A stretch of 64,000 bases of DNA from Neoasaia chiangmaiensis (GTDB lineage: Bacteria > Pseudomonadota > Alphaproteobacteria > Acetobacterales > Acetobacteraceae), in assembly GCF_002005465.1 (NCBI RefSeq), contig NZ_CP014691.1, forward strand, positions 2,630,501-2,694,500. The letters are read 5' to 3'. The position numbers and the translations under genes are program-made. This document shows, piece by piece, positions 52,024 to 60,866 of the stretch. Every line of letters begins with the position of its first letter. Within the stretch, counting starts at the first letter, position 1. The notes beneath the pieces were generated by a model that worked only from the letters and a program-made list of their open reading frames with translations, did not search any database and was not told where the DNA came from.

Positions 52024-52923
52024 ATGGCACGCATCTTTATCGACGGTGAAGCGGGAACCACGGGCCTCGGCATTCGCGAGCGCCTGCGCGATTTGCCGGT
52101 CGAGGTGCTGTCGATCGATCCGGCGCGTCGCAAGGATCCAGCGGCACGGGCCGCCCTCATGGCGGAAGCGGATGTAGCGGTGCTGTGCCTGCCTGACGAT
52201 GCCGCGCGCGAGGTTGCGGCCCTGGCGGCGGATATGGCGGATGTGCGTCTGCTGGATGCCAGTACGGCGCACCGCCTGACGGAAGGGTGGGTCTATGGCC
52301 TGCCGGAACTAGAGGAAGGGCAGGACGCGCGGATTGCGCGCGCGCGTTTCGTGGCCAATCCCGGATGCTATCCGACCGGCGCGATCGCGCTGTTGCGTCC
52401 GCTGGTGATGGCGGGTCTCCTTCCGTCAGATCATCCTGTTTCGATCAACGCGGTCAGCGGCTACAGCGGCGGCGGTCGTCAGGAGATCGAGGCGCATGAG
52501 GCCGAGGGCGGGCCGGCATTCGAGCTGTATGGGCTGACGCTCAAGCATAAGCATGTGCCGGAGATCCAGCAGTATGGCGGCCTGTCACGTCGACCGATCT
52601 TCGTGCCGTCGATCGGGCATTTCGCGCAGGGCATGATCGTGTCCATCCCGTTGCACCTTGATGAACTGCCGGGGCGGCCGACGATCGGCGATGTCACGGA
52701 TGCCCTGCGCACTGCGTATGTCGGCCGCGATCGTATACAGGTCGTGGCGCAGGATGGTCCGCGTCTCGATACGGCGGGCTTGGCCGGTTCGGATGCGATG
52801 GAGATCAGCGTGCATGGCACGGACGCCCATCCGCATGTGTTGTTGACGGCGCGGCTGGATAATCTCGGCAAGGGAGCCTCCGGGGCGGCGATCCAGAACC
52901 TGCGTCTGATGCTGGGAATCTGA
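52024..52923 (+). CDS. argC: N-acetyl-gamma-glutamyl-phosphate reductase (short form)
   Basis: 299 residues. N-terminal [18 protein letters not shown] for NADP binding and the catalytic Cys C115 in [13 protein letters not shown], followed by [11 protein letters not shown] and HKHVPEI. This is the type-2 ArgC (about 300-310 residues). It reduces N-acetylglutamyl-phosphate in arginine biosynthesis. AAGGGA lies upstream of the ATG. It is convergent with the carotenoid operon's last gene (14 bases between stops). Confidence 0.95.
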
Positions 52924-52937
52924 CGCCTGCGAGGCGA

Positions 52938-53351
52938 TCAGTGCGTGATGAGATGAACCGTGATCGCCCCGCCGGCGGGGGTGACGGCGATATCGGCCTG
53001 ATCGAAATCCGGCGGCCCGAAACGCAGCTTCGGGTCGCGTGAGAAGCCAAGCGGCTCCTGTGGCATGCCGATGAAGCTGCGGTCGAGTTTTCGGTTGCCG
53101 TTGCGATCCTGAAAAGCCTGGAGGGCGTAGGTGCCGGGCGCCACATCGTTCAGGGCGAGCTGGACCGAGCCTGAACGCGCGGGTGTCTGCGCCGTGTATT
53201 GGCATGTCGGACGCAGGAAGTCGGCGTGCGAGCACAATGCGATCCGGATATTGCCCTGCGCATCGGGGATGTTGTCGATCGTCACGTTCAGTGTTGCAGC
53301 TCCGGCTGTGCCGGCGATGGCGATCAGTGCGAGACCGAGGATGCGTTTCAT
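52938..53351 (-). CDS. DUF2141 protein, last gene of the carotenoid operon
   Basis: 137 residues with signal peptide MKRILGLALIAIAGTAGA; a longer frame to 53429 is rejected because it lacks that signal. The mature domain is DUF2141: LNVTIDNIPDAQGNIRIALCSHADFL, then VAPGTYALQAFQDRNGNRKLDRSFIGMPQEPLGFS and a final beta strand. The fold is a small secreted beta sandwich with no assigned function. Its start overlaps the glycosyltransferase stop by 4 bases, so it is co-translated with the pigment genes. Genes of this family occur beside C30 carotenoid genes in other bacteria. A role in pigment carriage or envelope assembly is guesswork. Confidence 0.85.
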   Translation of the reverse strand: MKRILGLALIAIAGTAGAATLNVTIDNIPDAQGNIRIALCSHADFLRPTCQYTAQTPARSGSVQLALNDVAPGTYALQAFQDRNGNRKLDRSFIGMPQEPLGFSRDPKLRFGPPDFDQADIAVTPAGGAITVHLITH

Positions 53352-54448
53352 GGTGAAGGTCCTTCCGAATAGGCACGCCCGCGCCATTCCACCGGCCGCC
53401 CGAGCAGTTTCCCGATGAAACTCTGCCATTGCACGATCAGCAGCAGCCCGACGCCGAGCGGGCTGGCCAGGACAGTGGCGAAGCCCTGGCGAAAGCGCAG
53501 GGCGATGAGGGAGCGAAAGAGGATGCTGGCGAGCCGTGCCAGCGTGACCGGCCTGGATGCGGGAAGCAGAAACGGCAGGACGTGGCCAGCCCCGAGCAAT
53601 ATCGTCCAGACCGGCAGGCCGCGCGGTGTCGCCATGCCTTCGGTCGCGTTTTTGGTCAGGCCGGACCAGACGTCGCGGTTGCGGCGATACATGCGACAGG
53701 AGGCGACGGGCGTTGCGTCGGTGAGGGCTGTGCGAAAGCCGTTCCGGCGGAAAGCGCGGGCCAGGGCGATGCCATCATGCAGACGGCTGCGGATTGCTCC
53801 ATGGCCACCGATGGCCTGATAGGCGTCGGCCCGGACCATCACCAGTTGGCCGCAGGCGGTGGCGAAGCCGGGTACTGTCTTGCGGTCGAGGATAAGTGGC
53901 AGATAGCCAAGCAGGAGAACGTTAATGAGTGGCAGCAGGAGCCATTCCAGCGCACCCACCGTGATCTGGCGCGGCACGCCGCTGAGCATGGCGAGGGAAG
54001 GTTCGCGGCGCACTCGCTCGGCCAGCCGTGCCACGCCGTCCGGCTGGATGCGCACATCGGCGTCCAGGAACAGAAGGAGTTCGTAGCGGGCGGCAGCGGC
54101 GAGTTGGGCGCTGGCGTGGTTCTTGCCGGTCCAGCCGGTCGGCAGGGGTGCCGAGTCGATGACACGCAGGCGGGGATCGGCGATCGCGCGGGCGATCGCG
54201 CCGGTTCCATCGGTCGAATGGTCGTCCAGCACGACGATTTCGAACGGGATGTCACGCGTGGCGAGCGCGGCGCCCAGGGCGCCGGTGATATTCGCGGCTT
54301 CGTTGCGCGCCGGGATGAGGAGCGAGACACGACATGTCGTGTTGGTGCGCGGCAGGGGCGGCGCGCGCAGGAGACGCAGGTTGATGGCGGACATGGCCAG
54401 TGGCAGCAGCGCCGATGCCAGTGTCAGTTTTTCGAGGAAGCGTCTCAT
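53348..54448 (-). CDS. crtQ: Family 2 glycosyltransferase, CrtQ-like
   Basis: 366 residues. N-terminal hydrophobic helix, then the GT-A core: SLLIPARNEAANITGAL, VVLDDHSTDGT (residues 73-82, nucleotide-sugar site), PTGWTGKNHA, FLDADVRI (128-134, metal-binding DxD) and, later, IGGHGAIRSRLHDGIALARAFRRNG. Three hydrophobic segments end the protein. In staphyloxanthin synthesis CrtQ attaches glucose to diaponeurosporenoic acid; operon neighbours support the same role. A hopanoid-associated GT (HpnB type) is the alternative. Overlaps the acyltransferase gene by 4 bases. Confidence 0.82.
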   Translation of the reverse strand: MRRFLEKLTLASALLPLAMSAINLRLLRAPPLPRTNTTCRVSLLIPARNEAANITGALGAALATRDIPFEIVVLDDHSTDGTGAIARAIADPRLRVIDSAPLPTGWTGKNHASAQLAAAARYELLLFLDADVRIQPDGVARLAERVRREPSLAMLSGVPRQITVGALEWLLLPLINVLLLGYLPLILDRKTVPGFATACGQLVMVRADAYQAIGGHGAIRSRLHDGIALARAFRRNGFRTALTDATPVASCRMYRRNRDVWSGLTKNATEGMATPRGLPVWTILLGAGHVLPFLLPASRPVTLARLASILFRSLIALRFRQGFATVLASPLGVGLLLIVQWQSFIGKLLGRPVEWRGRAYSEGPSP

Positions 54449-55197
54449 GCTTCGTGACGGGCGTTGAAACGCCGTCCGTGCCCCCAGGCATGCACACGGC
54501 GGATCGTGTCGTAAACGCCGCCCACGCCGGCGCGCCCGGTCGCGAGGGTCGTGAAACGCGCCGGATCGCGTGTCTGCGCGTCAGTGGCGAGGCGGTCCAT
54601 GGTGTCGGTCAAGGCATTGCTCAGCGTTGCAAGAGTGATGGCGGGACGTGCGTCTGGCGCCGTTGTGAAGGCATCACCGAAACGCAGCAGGATTTCCGGG
54701 CGGCTTTCCGTCCAGAACGGATATTCGATGGCAAGGGGAAGAATCCGGACGCCCGGATGCTGACGGGCGAGATGTGCAACCCCGCTCTGCAAGACGATGG
54801 GCCGGAGACGCGGATCGACGAACCGGCCTTGCGCCGTGATCCAGAGGACGTGCCCGTTCGCCAGAAGCCGACGCGCGCGGCGCAGAAAGACGCGAAGCGT
54901 TGCGGGGTCCGTGGCGTCGAGCGGAATGAGGCCCGCGCGTTCGAGAAGTGGGTAACGCTTCAACGCCTGCGCGTCGATCGGACCGTATCCATGCCGAGGG
55001 TGGAACAGACGATGTTGCAGGGCGGCGAAAACAGCGGGGTCCCACCACGAGGAATGATTGGCGCAGACGATCAGAGGTCCGTTTTCAACGGCACGGGGCA
55101 GGGCGCCGGAAAGACGGATGGCATTGAACTGTCGTGCGATGCCATGGCGCATGGCGCGGCCCACAAGGGCCGCGACGATGGGATGCCGGTCCGTCAT
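54445..55197 (-). CDS. Lysophospholipid-type acyltransferase, CrtO-like
   Basis: 250 residues of the PlsC/1-acyl-glycerol-3-phosphate acyltransferase superfamily: HX4D motif H48-D53 in CANHSSWWDPAVF, and a later GLIPLDATDPATLRVFLRRARR and ITAQGRFVDPRLRP stretch positioned like the PEGT/FxxG acceptor motif. Here it lies inside the carotenoid operon, between crtP-like and the glycosyltransferase, and overlaps each by 4 bases. By analogy with S. aureus CrtO it would esterify a fatty acid to the sugar of a glycosylated carotenoic acid, although it is a different family from that protein in its soluble character. Symbol left open. Confidence 0.8.
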   Translation of the reverse strand: MTDRHPIVAALVGRAMRHGIARQFNAIRLSGALPRAVENGPLIVCANHSSWWDPAVFAALQHRLFHPRHGYGPIDAQALKRYPLLERAGLIPLDATDPATLRVFLRRARRLLANGHVLWITAQGRFVDPRLRPIVLQSGVAHLARQHPGVRILPLAIEYPFWTESRPEILLRFGDAFTTAPDARPAITLATLSNALTDTMDRLATDAQTRDPARFTTLATGRAGVGGVYDTIRRVHAWGHGRRFNARHEA

Positions 55198-56741
55198 GCC
55201 TGGATGCGCTTGCCTGCGTTGACGGCCGGGAGATCATGGTCCGCGCAATCCGCGGCGATCCAGCCGGACATCAGCGCCATCGGCATGCCGGCACCGGGAT
55301 GCGCCGCACCGCCGGCGAGATACAGGCCGTCGAGTTCACGCGCGCGATTGGCGGGCTTGAACGCACCGTTAAGGCGACCGTGACTGGCGAGGCCGTAGAT
55401 CGCCCCGCGAAGGGGTGAGTAACGGTTGTGGATGTCCAGCGGCGTCAGATGATGTTCGACGCGGATACGCGCCTCGATATCGGTGAGGCCGGCGCAGCGC
55501 TTCAGCTTGTCGAGTATGACCTGTCGATAATGGGGGAACATCTCGTGCCAGTTCTGGCCGCGCCGGATATAGGGCGTGTGGACCAGCACATACAGCGCCT
55601 CGCCACCGGGGGGCGCGACGGCGGGGTCGGTCCGTGCGGGGGCGGCGAGATAGCATGTCGGGTCCTCCGCCGGGACGCCGCGTTTGTAGATCGCGTCGAA
55701 TTCCTCCTCCGGATTTCCGGAGAAGACGAAATCGTGATGCGCCAGATGGTCGTAGGCACGATCGAGGCCGAGATAAAGCACGACGCCGGAACAGGCGGGG
55801 CGACGGCGGCCCCATTGCCGTTCGAAACGCCGGGTGTCGACGCCCTCGACCAGTTCACGCATGGTGCGCACGCTGTCCATGTTCGAGACGACGGCCCTGG
55901 CGGGGATGATCTCCCCATGGGTGGTTTCGATACCGGTGGCGCGACCGTGCTGTTGCAGGATACGTTTGATGCGCGTGCCGGGACGGAAGACGACGCCGAG
56001 TTCACGGGCGAGATCGACAAGAGCTTTCGGAACGGCGCGGGTGCCGCCCATCGGATACCAGACGCCGTCGTTGACCTGCATATGCGCGATGCCCGTCAGC
56101 ACGGCCGGGGCCTGTAGCGGGTTGGACCCGACGTATTGCGTGAAATGATCGAGCATTTGCACCGTGCGCCTGTCGCGAATGCGGCGGCGAATTTCCCGAC
56201 CCAATGTTGAATCCATGCGCAATGCCAGCACGTCGCGCAGCGTGGCGGCGTTGAAGGTGGTGCCGAGATCGAGCGTATCCATCACGCCGCCCACGGATTT
56301 CCAGAAGAAGAACCGCTCGGAAATCTCATGGAGTTTCTGGCTTGCGGCGATGAGATTGCGGTATCCGTCGCCGTCTCCCGTGCATAGTTCGTCAAGGCGT
56401 CGTACCATCGCGTCGATGTCGTCGCAGAGGTCGATCCGGGTGCCGTCCTCGAAGAAGCAGCGCCATTGCGGGTCGAGGCGTCGCAGGTCGAGCCGATCCG
56501 CCATTTTCACGTCCGCCTCGCCGAAGATGCGTTCGAGCACGCGCGGGACAGTCAGGATTGTCGGTCCCATGTCGAACCGATACCCGCTAGATCGCCATTC
56601 CGCAGCCTTGCCGCCCAGCCAGTCATTGGCCTCGCAAACCGTGACGGCGTGACCGCGCGCGGCCAGTGTGCAGGCGGCGGCGAGACCGCCGAGTCCCGCG
56701 CCGATCACGACGATGGGTGAGGCGGCGTCAGGCGATGTCAT
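55194..56741 (-). CDS. crtP: CrtP-like C30 carotenoid oxidase
   Basis: 515 residues of the phytoene desaturase family. FAD motif VVIGAGLGGLAAACTLAARGH, FDMGPTILTVP, and the CrtP-typical block YVGSNPLQAPAVLTGIAHMQ, LAHHDFVFSGNPEEEFDAIYKRGVPAEDPTCYL, then AIYGLASHGRLNGAFKP and a C-terminal GGAAHPGAGMPM. These match 4,4'-diaponeurosporene oxidase (CrtP) better than CrtN. It would oxidise a terminal methyl of a C30 carotene to the aldehyde. Overlaps crtN by 14 bases and the acyltransferase by 4. Confidence 0.86.
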   Translation of the reverse strand: MTSPDAASPIVVIGAGLGGLAAACTLAARGHAVTVCEANDWLGGKAAEWRSSGYRFDMGPTILTVPRVLERIFGEADVKMADRLDLRRLDPQWRCFFEDGTRIDLCDDIDAMVRRLDELCTGDGDGYRNLIAASQKLHEISERFFFWKSVGGVMDTLDLGTTFNAATLRDVLALRMDSTLGREIRRRIRDRRTVQMLDHFTQYVGSNPLQAPAVLTGIAHMQVNDGVWYPMGGTRAVPKALVDLARELGVVFRPGTRIKRILQQHGRATGIETTHGEIIPARAVVSNMDSVRTMRELVEGVDTRRFERQWGRRRPACSGVVLYLGLDRAYDHLAHHDFVFSGNPEEEFDAIYKRGVPAEDPTCYLAAPARTDPAVAPPGGEALYVLVHTPYIRRGQNWHEMFPHYRQVILDKLKRCAGLTDIEARIRVEHHLTPLDIHNRYSPLRGAIYGLASHGRLNGAFKPANRARELDGLYLAGGAAHPGAGMPMALMSGWIAADCADHDLPAVNAGKRIQA

Positions 56742-58290
56742 GAGCGGGATATCTTTTCGGTGAGAAAGAAGGTCTGTCCTGACGGACCGGTCTTGGCGAG
56801 AGGTCGTCGATCAGCAGATCGCTGCTGATCCGCGCGCCTTCGAAGATGACGGGCAAGCCGCTGCCGGGATGCGTGCCGCCGCCCACGAGATAGACGCCGG
56901 GAATGTCCTCGAAGCGGTTATGGGGCCGATAATGCAGCATCTGGCCGAGGTTGTGGGCGAGGTTGAACACCGCGCCACGGTGAACGTCGAAATCCGACTC
57001 CCAATCCGCGGGGGTGACGATCTTCTCGAAGCGGATACGGGACTCCACATCGCCGAAACCCGCATCCTTCAGGCGGGCGAGGGCGATACGTCGGGCCGCG
57101 TCACGGGTGGCGTCGTTCCACGCAAGACCGCCTTCGCGCAGGTTGCCGACGGGCATAAGCACATACAGCGTGGAATGGCCGGGCGGTGCCTGGGTCGGGT
57201 CGGTCACGCAGGCGTTCTGCACATAGAGCGATGCGCGGTCCGAGAGGATGCGACCGGCTTCGATATCGGCGAAATTGCGGTCGTAATCACTGGACAGGAA
57301 GATCGTGTGATGGCCACGATCCGGGGGTGGCCCCTCCAGCCCCAGATACATCATGAATGTCGAGCAGGAATATTTCTTGCGGGCCAGGTTGCGGTCTGTC
57401 CAGCGTTTGCGGGCGCTGTCGGGTGTCAGTTTCGTCATGGCGCGTGCGAAGTCCGCGTTCATGACGACAGCATCCGCCGGCTCCATGCCGCGATCCGTGA
57501 CAACGCCCCGGGCCCGGCCGCGCTCGAGATGCAGGGAGCGGATGGGCGTGTCGAACTGAAACGTCACGCCGAAGCGCCTTGCCGCCCGCATCATGGCGTC
57601 CATGACGGCTTTCGTGCCGCCGATCGGATGAAATATGCCGAATTCATGCTCCATGAAGCTCAGGATCGTGAACAGGCTGGGACAACGATAGGGCGACATC
57701 CCGAGATATTTGCTCTGGAAGGAGAAAGCCAGACGCGTGCGGGGATTGCGAAAGTGGCGCGCGAGATCGCGATCGACGGACCGGCGCGGACGCAGAAGCG
57801 GCAGGGCCTTCAGCATGTCGCCCCGGAAGACATCGCGCAGACCGTTGAACGGTCGTTGCAGGACCGGGGAAAAAGCAGCGAATTTCCGGCGGTTCTCCGC
57901 AAGGAAATCGGGTACGGCGCTGGCATCGACGGGATCGATCTTGCTGATCTCGCAATGCAGGCTTTCGGGATCGCGACTCAGCCGCAGGCTGGGACCGTCC
58001 TCGAATGACAGATCATAGAGGTCGTCCAGACGCCTGAATGTCACTTCCCGATCCAGATCAAGGCCGCACCGTTCGAACAGCGCGCGCAGGATCTGTGGGT
58101 AGAGGAAGAAGGTAGGGCCGATATCGAAACGATAGCCGTCGGCCTCGATGGCACTGGAACGCCCCCCGACATCGCCGTGCCGTTCATAGACCGTGACATC
58201 CGCGCCGGCATGACCGAGCATCATGGCGGCGGCGAGGCCACCTGGTCCGGCACCGACGATGGCGATACGACGCGATGCCAGCGGCCTCAT
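56728..58290 (-). CDS. crtN: CrtN-like C30 carotene desaturase
   Basis: About 520 residues from the ATG at 58290 (GAGGG upstream; ATG 58296 possible). FAD motif IAIVGAGPGGLAAAMML, YRFDIGPTFFLYP, then CrtN-like features YKYLGMSPYR-type YLGMSPYRCPSLFTIL, FHPIGGTKAVMDAM, KYSCSTFMMYLGL and GGGTHPGSGLP near the end. CrtN desaturates dehydrosqualene or squalene to a coloured C30 polyene. First gene of the operon; divergent from the aldehyde dehydrogenase. In Methylomonas a CrtN acts directly on squalene, a route that would fit here since no crtM is present. Confidence 0.86.
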   Translation of the reverse strand: MRPLASRRIAIVGAGPGGLAAAMMLGHAGADVTVYERHGDVGGRSSAIEADGYRFDIGPTFFLYPQILRALFERCGLDLDREVTFRRLDDLYDLSFEDGPSLRLSRDPESLHCEISKIDPVDASAVPDFLAENRRKFAAFSPVLQRPFNGLRDVFRGDMLKALPLLRPRRSVDRDLARHFRNPRTRLAFSFQSKYLGMSPYRCPSLFTILSFMEHEFGIFHPIGGTKAVMDAMMRAARRFGVTFQFDTPIRSLHLERGRARGVVTDRGMEPADAVVMNADFARAMTKLTPDSARKRWTDRNLARKKYSCSTFMMYLGLEGPPPDRGHHTIFLSSDYDRNFADIEAGRILSDRASLYVQNACVTDPTQAPPGHSTLYVLMPVGNLREGGLAWNDATRDAARRIALARLKDAGFGDVESRIRFEKIVTPADWESDFDVHRGAVFNLAHNLGQMLHYRPHNRFEDIPGVYLVGGGTHPGSGLPVIFEGARISSDLLIDDLSPRPVRQDRPSFSPKRYPAHDIA

Positions 58291-58296
58291 GCCCAT

Positions 58297-58471
58297 GCCC
58301 TCATTGCTGGAAATACCGATAGTCGCCTGGCAGCATCATGGTGAGCGAGATCCGCATGCTTTATTCTTCTTGATTTTATTGGAGCGATTTTTTCGCTCTT
58401 CATGCGGATCGAACGATTTGCCCTGTTAAAAGTTTTCTTCACAAAAAAAACAGGGCAGGCGTACGGACGGC
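58297..58471. promoter_or_regulatory. Divergent promoter region with two inverted repeats
   Basis: 175-base region between crtN and aldH-like gene. Inverted repeat 1: GAGCGA/TCGCTC with a 5-T loop (58382-58398). Inverted repeat 2: CCCTGTT/AACAGGG (58421-58427 and 58449-58455, 21-base spacer), 17 bases before the aldehyde dehydrogenase start. Either could be an operator or an RNA hairpin; no regulator gene is adjacent. Confidence 0.45.
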
Positions 58472-59755
58472 ATGACGGATATTGATGAGGTACTGCATTT
58501 TTCCGTTGGAAAACTGCGAGCGGCGTCGAGCGACTGGGCCTCGACGGCGATGGTCAATCGTATTGCTGTGCTGCGGCGTTTCCGGCGCCTGTTGCACGCG
58601 CGCCTGTACCAGGTCGCGCGGTTGTATCCGAGCCGTCCCGCTGTGGAGACGGTGACGGCGGAATTATTGCCGCTATCGGCGGCGTGCGCCTTTCTGGTGC
58701 GTGAAGCCGCGAAGGTCCTGATGTCCCGCTCGATCGGGTGGCGTGGCAGGCCGCTCTGGCTGATGGGGACATCGGCCGTTGTCGAGCGTCGGCCTTACGG
58801 GGCCGTGCTCGTTCTGGGGCCGGGAAATTATCCGCTGATGTTGCCCGGCGTACAGATTCTGCAGGCATTGGTCGCAGGCAACGCGGTGGCGTTCAAGCCC
58901 GCGCCGGGTGGGGAGGCGGTAGCGTCCTTTCTGGTCGCGCTGCTGCGGGAAGCGGGGTTGCCGGAAGGGCTGGTGGATATTCTGCCGGTCGATGCCGGCG
59001 AGGCGGCGATCGCCGCCGGATATGACCTGATCGTCCTGACAGGCTCGGCGTCGACCGGTCGTGCGGTGGCCAGGGCGGCCGCGGCGACGCTGACACCCAC
59101 GATCATGGAATTGTCGGGGTCCGACGCGGTATTCGTGATGGCGGATGCGGATCTGGCCCATATTGCGCGATCGCTTGCCTTCGGCGCGCGGCTGAATGCG
59201 GGCGCGACGTGCATCGGGCCGCATCGCGTTTTCGTTCTTCGAGGCGACGTGTCGCAACTGCGGGCTCATCTGCAACGTGCTTTGCGCAAGGGGCGGGGAC
59301 GGAGGGTGCACGGTCGCGCCCTCGCGGCGCGCGAGGCGTTCCTTCAGGGCCTGCCGGATATGGGGATGGTGGAGACCATCGGCGGCGTGACACTATTCGA
59401 CGTGCCGCCAGAAAGCGTGCGGGCGCTCGACGAGGACATTTTCGCGCCGTGGATGGCTCTGATTGCGGTGGATTCGATGGAAGAGGCGTTACGGCTGAAT
59501 GCCGGGTGCCCTTATGCGCTGGGCGCCAGCGTGTTCGGGCCCGAGGCAGCGGCGCGAGCATTGGCGTCGCGGCTGCCCGTGGGCTCCATCTGCATCAACG
59601 ACGTCATCGTGCCGACGGCGGATCCGCGTCTGCCCTTCGGCGGTGCGCGACGGAGCGGCTATGGCGTGACGCGGGGACGCGAGGGATTGCTGGCGATGAC
59701 GCGGCCGGTGGCGGTGTCCACACGACGCGGCTGGGCCTTCCATCTGTGGGGTTAG
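58472..59755 (+). CDS. aldH: Aldehyde dehydrogenase, AldH of C30 carotenoid pathway
   Basis: 427 residues. Motifs: GPGNYP with N119, FKPAPGG with the NAD-contacting K142, GSASTGRAV at about 191-199, E213 in MELSGSDA and catalytic C247 in NAGATCIGP, and the C-terminal PFGGARRSGYG. It is shorter than the usual 470-500 residues. In staphyloxanthin and Methylomonas pathways AldH oxidises the carotenoid aldehyde to the acid that is glycosylated. Its location divergent from crtN supports that role; a general aldehyde dehydrogenase is the alternative. Confidence 0.83.
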   Translation: MTDIDEVLHFSVGKLRAASSDWASTAMVNRIAVLRRFRRLLHARLYQVARLYPSRPAVETVTAELLPLSAACAFLVREAAKVLMSRSIGWRGRPLWLMGTSAVVERRPYGAVLVLGPGNYPLMLPGVQILQALVAGNAVAFKPAPGGEAVASFLVALLREAGLPEGLVDILPVDAGEAAIAAGYDLIVLTGSASTGRAVARAAAATLTPTIMELSGSDAVFVMADADLAHIARSLAFGARLNAGATCIGPHRVFVLRGDVSQLRAHLQRALRKGRGRRVHGRALAAREAFLQGLPDMGMVETIGGVTLFDVPPESVRALDEDIFAPWMALIAVDSMEEALRLNAGCPYALGASVFGPEAAARALASRLPVGSICINDVIVPTADPRLPFGGARRSGYGVTRGREGLLAMTRPVAVSTRRGWAFHLWG

Positions 59756-59810
59756 CTTGCGGCTCGAGGGGAATGGCAGCCGTCGAAACGCCCGCATCCC
59801 TGTCAGGCAT

Positions 59811-60866
59811 TCATGCCGGCTGGCCGTTCAGATGCCGTCTGGTTCCCGCAGGATCGCGGACGGTCGCCGCTGTTTCATCCAGATAATCCGGGCCTAGCGG
59901 CACCTTGCCGTGGCCGCCGGGGATGTCGAGCACGTAGGTCGGCCAGGCGAGGCCGGTGACGCGCCCGCGCAGGTTGGCCAGCAGGGCGCGCCCTTCCGCG
60001 ATGGGAACGTGAAAGGATGCGGTCCCCGGCGCCGGGTCGAGTTGATGCAGGTAGTAAGGTTTGACGCGCGCGCTCACCATGGCGCGCAGGAGTGCCTCCA
60101 GCGCATCGGGCGTGTCGTTGACGCCGCGCAGCAACACGGATTGGCCGAGCACCGGGATGGCCCTTGCCTGCACGGCACGGATGGCGTGGCGGGCTTCGGG
60201 GGAAAATTCGCGAGCGTGGTTGGCGTGCATGACGAGCCACATCGCGCGATCGGTTTCCATGGCGTCCAGGAGTGCCGGCGTCATGCGCTCCGGGGCGGCG
60301 ACGGGAACGCGCGTATGGATGCGGATCGTCTCGATATGCGCGATGTCGGACAACGCGCGCATGATCGCGCCGAGGCGACGGGGGCTGAGCATCAGCGGGT
60401 CGCCGCCGGTCAGGATGACTTCGCGGATGGCGGGATTGTCGCGCAGCCAGGCATAGGCCGTCTCAAGCTGATCGTCGGTCAGGAGGCCGCCGTCGGGGCC
60501 GACATGTTCGCGCCGGAAACAGAAGCGACAATAGAGCGGACAGATCAGCAGTGGTTTGAGCAGGGCACGGTCAGCGTAGCGATGGACGATGCCGGGCACG
60601 GGCGACAGGGCATCGTCGCCGATCGGGTCGGCTTGCTCATGAGGAGCGATATCGAGTTCCGACAGGGCCGGGATCACCTGACGGCCGATCGGATCATCCG
60701 GGGACTCGATCAGGGCCTGGAAGGCGGGGGGAATGGCCGTCGCGTATCGTTCGGCCACGGCTTCGAGCGCCGGGCCTTCTTCCGGGCGTGCGAGGCCCGC
60801 GGCGATGAGTTCGCGCACGTGGCGCAACGTGGCGCCTGTCTTCAGGGGGTTGACCATGGCCGTCAT
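59811..60866 (-). CDS. epmB: EF-P beta-lysylation protein, lysine 2,3-aminomutase-like
   Basis: 351 residues of the KamA/EpmB radical-SAM family. The 4Fe-4S motif CxxxCxxC is C109, C113, C116 (ICPLYCRFCFRRE), followed by VILTGGDPLMLSPRRL and IHTRVPVAAPERM; a PLP lysine sits in the C-terminal GHGKVPLGP segment. EpmB turns (S)-alpha-lysine into (R)-beta-lysine for attachment to elongation factor P. It is head-to-head with epmA, 39 bases between starts, which strongly supports the assignment. An ATG at 60857 is an alternative start. Confidence 0.93.
   Translation of the reverse strand: MTAMVNPLKTGATLRHVRELIAAGLARPEEGPALEAVAERYATAIPPAFQALIESPDDPIGRQVIPALSELDIAPHEQADPIGDDALSPVPGIVHRYADRALLKPLLICPLYCRFCFRREHVGPDGGLLTDDQLETAYAWLRDNPAIREVILTGGDPLMLSPRRLGAIMRALSDIAHIETIRIHTRVPVAAPERMTPALLDAMETDRAMWLVMHANHAREFSPEARHAIRAVQARAIPVLGQSVLLRGVNDTPDALEALLRAMVSARVKPYYLHQLDPAPGTASFHVPIAEGRALLANLRGRVTGLAWPTYVLDIPGGHGKVPLGPDYLDETAATVRDPAGTRRHLNGQPA

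Follow-up and report, generated by a model that had tools for sequence, protein, structure and literature searches.

A C30 carotenoid operon, likely fed by squalene, in the acetic acid bacterium Neoasaia chiangmaiensis

In Staphylococcus aureus, staphyloxanthin is built by the successive action of a desaturase, an oxidase, an aldehyde dehydrogenase, a glycosyltransferase and an acyltransferase; the pathway uses the dehydrosqualene synthase CrtM and the acyltransferase CrtO. Planctomycetes reportedly make C30 carotenoids from squalene instead, with HpnCDE and CrtN/CrtP, a route that Santana-Molina et al. are said to have described in 2022. In Azospirillum brasilense Sp7 (hpnCDE, crtNPOQ, aldH), deletion of hpnCDE is reported to abolish carotenoids, with no squalene detected, and deletion of crtNPOQ to abolish carotenoids with accumulation of squalene (PMC13274349). 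A study of Methylobacterium extorquens AM1 describes a C30 pathway (META1p1815-1817, 3663, 3664, 3665, 3670) with squalene from HpnCDE and with CrtN- and CrtP-type enzymes; deletions show that the pigment is completed by a glycosyltransferase and an acyltransferase of the lysophospholipid type (PMC10448405). According to the same study, a crtP deletion is colourless and the order in which CrtN and CrtP act is unsettled; deleting two candidate aldehyde dehydrogenase genes had no effect, and the enzyme for this step was not found.

We analysed a window of 64,000 nucleotides from the N. chiangmaiensis contig NZ_CP014691.1 (GCF_002005465.1, positions 2,630,501 to 2,694,500). Five genes of interest lie on its minus strand. 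The first encodes a CrtN-like desaturase (56728..58296, 522 residues; crtI_fam 471.7 bits, cut-off 238.1) and overlaps by 14 bases the gene for a CrtP-like oxidase (55194..56741, 515 residues; crtI_fam 410 bits, cut-off 238). Then follow, each overlapping the preceding gene by 4 bases, a PlsC-type acyltransferase (54445..55197, 250 residues; PF01553 37 bits, cut-off 23), a family-2 glycosyltransferase (53348..54448, 366 residues; PF00535 71 bits) and a DUF2141 protein (52938..53351, 137 residues; PF09912 99 bits). The last overlap holds if the DUF2141 gene starts at 53351; the list of open reading frames has a longer frame from 53429. The acyltransferase contains the HX4D motif (in NHSSWWD) and also matches TIGR00530, with a score below the cut-off. 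The sixth gene, for an aldehyde dehydrogenase (58472..59755, plus strand, 427 residues; PF00171 221 bits), diverges from crtN and stands outside the overlapping set since it is on the opposite strand, 175 bases away. These 175 bases (58297..58471) are, judged by position, the presumed promoter region of both the operon and the aldehyde dehydrogenase gene. At the other end argC converges on the DUF2141 gene with a gap of 14 bases. All six frames are open, intact and located where the first-pass annotation had placed them; its six gene assignments are backed by Pfam and NCBIfam matches, and the five genes it described as overlapping by 4 or 14 bases do so (14, 4, 4 and 4). The cluster holds no synthase gene.

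Among the closest described systems is that of A. brasilense Sp7, where all six genes recur in the order seen here, again with a divergent aldehyde dehydrogenase. Identities over the best segments span 45-65% (CrtP 65%, CrtN 58%, glycosyltransferase 53%, aldehyde dehydrogenase 53%, DUF2141 48%, acyltransferase 45%). There, too, the crt cluster lacks crtM and the hpn genes are found at another place. The Sp7 crt cluster, however, lies on a 645-kb plasmid, and hpnCDE are together, whereas N. chiangmaiensis has hpnC and hpnDE at two places. The genes of M. extorquens are, as described, less tightly clustered than here, and an aldehyde dehydrogenase was not found among them (PMC10448405). A squalene-fed pigment in an acetic acid bacterium had been proposed as a distinct variant, with the PlsC-type acyl step as a novelty. 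Neither proposal is supported, because the deletion studies in Azospirillum and Methylobacterium have already put the squalene route and such a step in print: Sp7 combines the same six-gene layout with an hpnCDE supply (PMC13274349), and the study of M. extorquens describes a squalene route with an acyltransferase of this type (PMC10448405).

The genome is a single contig of 3,407,860 bases (3.41 Mb), and we searched it for members of the squalene/phytoene synthase family, PF00494. Two were found, both away from the crt cluster. One scores as HpnD (333.8 bits, cut-off 278.6) and is followed by hpnE (406.7 bits, cut-off 283.05), by a squalene-hopene cyclase gene (754 bits, cut-off 431) and by one resembling hpnG (153 bits, below the cut-off of 187). 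The other scores as HpnC, a narrow pass (254.4 bits, cut-off 250.45), and adjoins genes for HpnB and HpnA in a second hopanoid cluster. Only two genes of the genome pass the crtI_fam cut-off, and these are crtN and crtP of the window. The whole contig yielded no CrtM, no CrtB (phytoene synthase) and no CrtI, so that the C30 precursor available is squalene made by HpnCDE. The absence of CrtM, claimed earlier from the window, is borne out: both PF00494 genes are of the Hpn type and lie in hopanoid clusters.

A scan of genome contigs gave at least 194 confirmed crtN relatives, of which the best 80 loci were kept; since several of their contigs are short, the absence of a gene carries little weight. 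In 46 of these best 80 of at least 194 loci, relatives of crtP, the acyltransferase and the glycosyltransferase genes are no more than 8 kb away from crtN, an arrangement far from chance. An aldehyde dehydrogenase of at least 150 bits is found within the same distance in 35 of these 80 loci; nine have a weaker match of 60-150 bits. From the 56 aldehyde dehydrogenase relatives found, we dropped those below 150 bits or of at most 350 residues and aligned the remaining 41 with the window's protein; Cys247 and Glu213, of the catalytic type, are kept in 42/42 proteins.

We built a maximum-likelihood tree from 65 proteins, taken from 29 of the loci, the window and references. It places the window CrtN with Sp7 CrtN in a clade of 30 rows (support 100/99) and the window CrtP with Sp7 CrtP in a separate clade of 30 rows (support 96/98). 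A CrtN-like protein of Niallia and two CrtI proteins fall outside both, on long branches whose placement we do not rely on. The rows nearest to the window are the relative G022, Gluconobacter, Acetobacter conturbans and Asaia. Taken with the presence of HpnC, HpnD and HpnE and the lack of CrtM and CrtB in the genome, this grouping gives the proposed squalene-fed pathway good support. We consider it highly likely that the locus encodes the later part of a pathway to C30 carotenoids, supplied with squalene by HpnC, HpnD and HpnE, in a genome without a dehydrosqualene synthase gene; the operon is real and probably working in this acetic acid bacterium.

Several loci have features of their own. 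All six genes, in one direction, are carried by the 173-kb plasmid unnamed1 of Gluconobacter thailandicus HD924, which is typed as conjugative; horizontal transfer is therefore possible. Plasmid unnamed2 of Microvirga ossetica bears what amounts to a self-contained cassette (aldehyde dehydrogenase, crtN, methyltransferase, crtP, acyltransferase, glycosyltransferase, an HpnC-HpnD fusion, an HpnE-like oxidoreductase and ispH); the HpnC and HpnD parts of its fusion are both above cut-off. Gluconobacter morbifer G707 carries, away from its crtN-crtP pair, an additional crtN accompanied by a DUF2141 gene. A crtN relative of 32.5% identity is on the plasmid record NZ_CP030101.1, labelled Listeria monocytogenes; its size (2.9 Mb) suggests a mislabelled chromosome.

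The precursor could in principle be supplied in another way. HpnD shares the family PF00494 with CrtM, and CrtM is reported to make squalene besides dehydrosqualene (PMC10870770); mixed products are thus possible within the family. HpnD (or HpnC) might then behave like CrtM and release enough dehydrosqualene for CrtN to use this compound rather than squalene. We think this quite improbable, since squalene is what accumulates in the reported crtNPOQ deletion of A. brasilense (PMC13274349). Moreover, hpnE, which only the squalene route requires, is found with hpnC and hpnD within 8 kb of crtN in nine of the best 80 of at least 194 loci, all nine of them alphaproteobacterial.

Whatever its substrate, the operon might be silent or its proteins poorly active, in which case no pigment would form under ordinary conditions. 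Indeed, a scan of positions 52700-60000 gave no match to a sigma-70-type promoter. Presumably, however, the sigma factor RpoE1 is of a type outside such a scan. RpoE1 is reported to raise the pathway in Sp7 (PMC13274349), and the intact frames and the conserved motifs of the acyltransferase and the aldehyde dehydrogenase further speak against a defunct operon, which we rate as less probable again. The slimmest chance of the three belongs to a CrtI-like action of CrtN and CrtP on a C40 carotene. Both proteins do match the general crtI_fam model, and C40 carotenoids are reported in Asaia (PMC6151773). Yet neither a phytoene synthase nor a CrtI-type phytoene desaturase was found in the genome; the two genes that pass crtI_fam group with C30 proteins, and the two CrtI references, though on long branches, lie outside both clades.

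On the squalene-fed pathway, we infer the following steps for N. chiangmaiensis. CrtN would desaturate squalene and CrtP would oxidize a terminal methyl group to the aldehyde, which the divergent aldehyde dehydrogenase would convert to the acid. Next, the glycosyltransferase would attach glucose to the acid as an ester, and the PlsC-type enzyme would add an acyl group to this sugar. The order of chemical steps is the same as in the staphyloxanthin pathway of S. aureus, but CrtM, which that pathway uses, is found nowhere in the genome; the predicted acylating enzyme is of the PlsC type (PF01553). By analogy with M. extorquens, the product could be a di-acid ester. The description 'staphyloxanthin-like' in the first-pass annotation fits only in a loose sense, that of a C30 carotenoid acid esterified with an acylated glucose.

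Related crt clusters occur in many planctomycete loci, but the DUF2141 gene sets the present arrangement apart. Of the best 80 of at least 194 loci, grouped by record title, 21 are alphaproteobacterial, and 16 of these have it at most 8 kb from crtN; none of the 59 others has it at that distance, one further match being found farther from crtN in a planctomycete locus. By eye, the N-terminal stretch of the window protein resembles a signal peptide, and its predicted structure is a β-sandwich (mean pLDDT 90.7); comparison of this predicted structure gave no functional lead. DUF2141 has been noted beside crtG in Sphingomonadales, with no known role (PMC5989583). We regard it as a predicted exported β-sandwich protein, and our guess is that its task may be to handle or hold the completed pigment beyond the inner membrane.

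We searched 200 Acetobacteraceae genomes, that of N. chiangmaiensis included, and obtained CrtN matches at a threshold of 1e-60 in 95. Taking matches of at least 52% identity as orthologues (the remaining listed matches have 30-37%), crtN is present in 63 of the 199 other genomes; it is split in G087, partial in G038 and G114 and interrupted by one in-frame stop in G015. In 33 of the 63 crtN-bearing genomes (G174, the genome of the query, is counted), a single reading frame contains HpnC and HpnD as a fusion that covers almost the entire query. The fusion lies on the same contig as crtN and within 10 kb of it in 30 of the 63, and on another contig in G058, G089 and G005; in four of the 30, reading of the region also revealed an hpnE relative. 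The fusion itself was already known (PMC5462960). In 20 regions selected from the 63 genomes for a closer look, the four crt genes are near crtN in all 20, DUF2141 in 13, an aldehyde dehydrogenase of at least 150 bits in six, HpnE relatives in five and HpnC relatives in four. The seven named acetic acid bacteria that we checked have their PF00494 genes and their crtN-crtP pair on different contigs. With the wordings we used, the open-access literature, a scope outside which most subscription papers fall, returned no paper joining C30 carotenoids with Acetobacteraceae and none joining Gluconobacter, crtN and squalene.

One point against the squalene route comes from Asaia, the closest of the pigmented genera whose chemistry has been published: C40 carotenoids are reported for strains of A. 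lannensis and A. bogorensis other than those analysed here (PMC6151773). All nine Asaia-group genomes have two PF00494 genes, HpnD- and HpnC-like by score and pairing (the HpnC-like gene of G211 is in two pieces), and no phytoene synthase was found in the nine beyond this pair. Nor, apart from crtN and crtP, do they contain any crtI_fam gene of full length; the crtN of G207 matches from profile position 53 on, and that of G210 is in pieces. The gene content of Asaia therefore conflicts with the published profile, which is a conflict and not a refutation. The C40 report is, equally, evidence against the squalene route for acetic acid bacteria at large.

Some further genes in these genomes concern retinal. 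A bacterial rhodopsin gene (PF01036) with a nearby gene for BCD-type β-carotene cleavage (PF15461) is present in all ten genomes G148, G207-G212, G084, G191 and the relative G008; the genome of N. chiangmaiensis has neither. Lycopene cyclase matches (PF05834) in the Asaia group span only profile positions 1-158 of 380. The retinal precursor in this group may come from outside the cell.

A broader proposal would be that the carotenoids of pigmented acetic acid bacteria, also those of Asaia, are all C30 compounds derived from squalene, the Asaia C40 profiles having been misassigned; that DUF2141 is a dedicated exported pigment partner; and that the aldehyde dehydrogenase linked to the operon belongs to the type of enzyme missing in M. 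extorquens. We put this forward tentatively, as the combination is rather more likely to fail in some part than to hold as a whole.

A squalene-fed C30 route is already known from other bacteria, and the find is mostly ordinary in that respect. What is added is the distribution of crtN and of the HpnC-HpnD fusion in Acetobacteraceae, the recurrence of DUF2141 and aldehyde dehydrogenase genes as partners and the absence, in nine Asaia genomes, of a phytoene synthase beyond the HpnC/HpnD pair. The published C40 profile of Asaia thereby becomes directly testable, and two conserved operon partners, the aldehyde dehydrogenase and DUF2141, are pointed out. The result places N. chiangmaiensis and many of its relatives on the squalene route, in which hopanoids and pigment would share one precursor.
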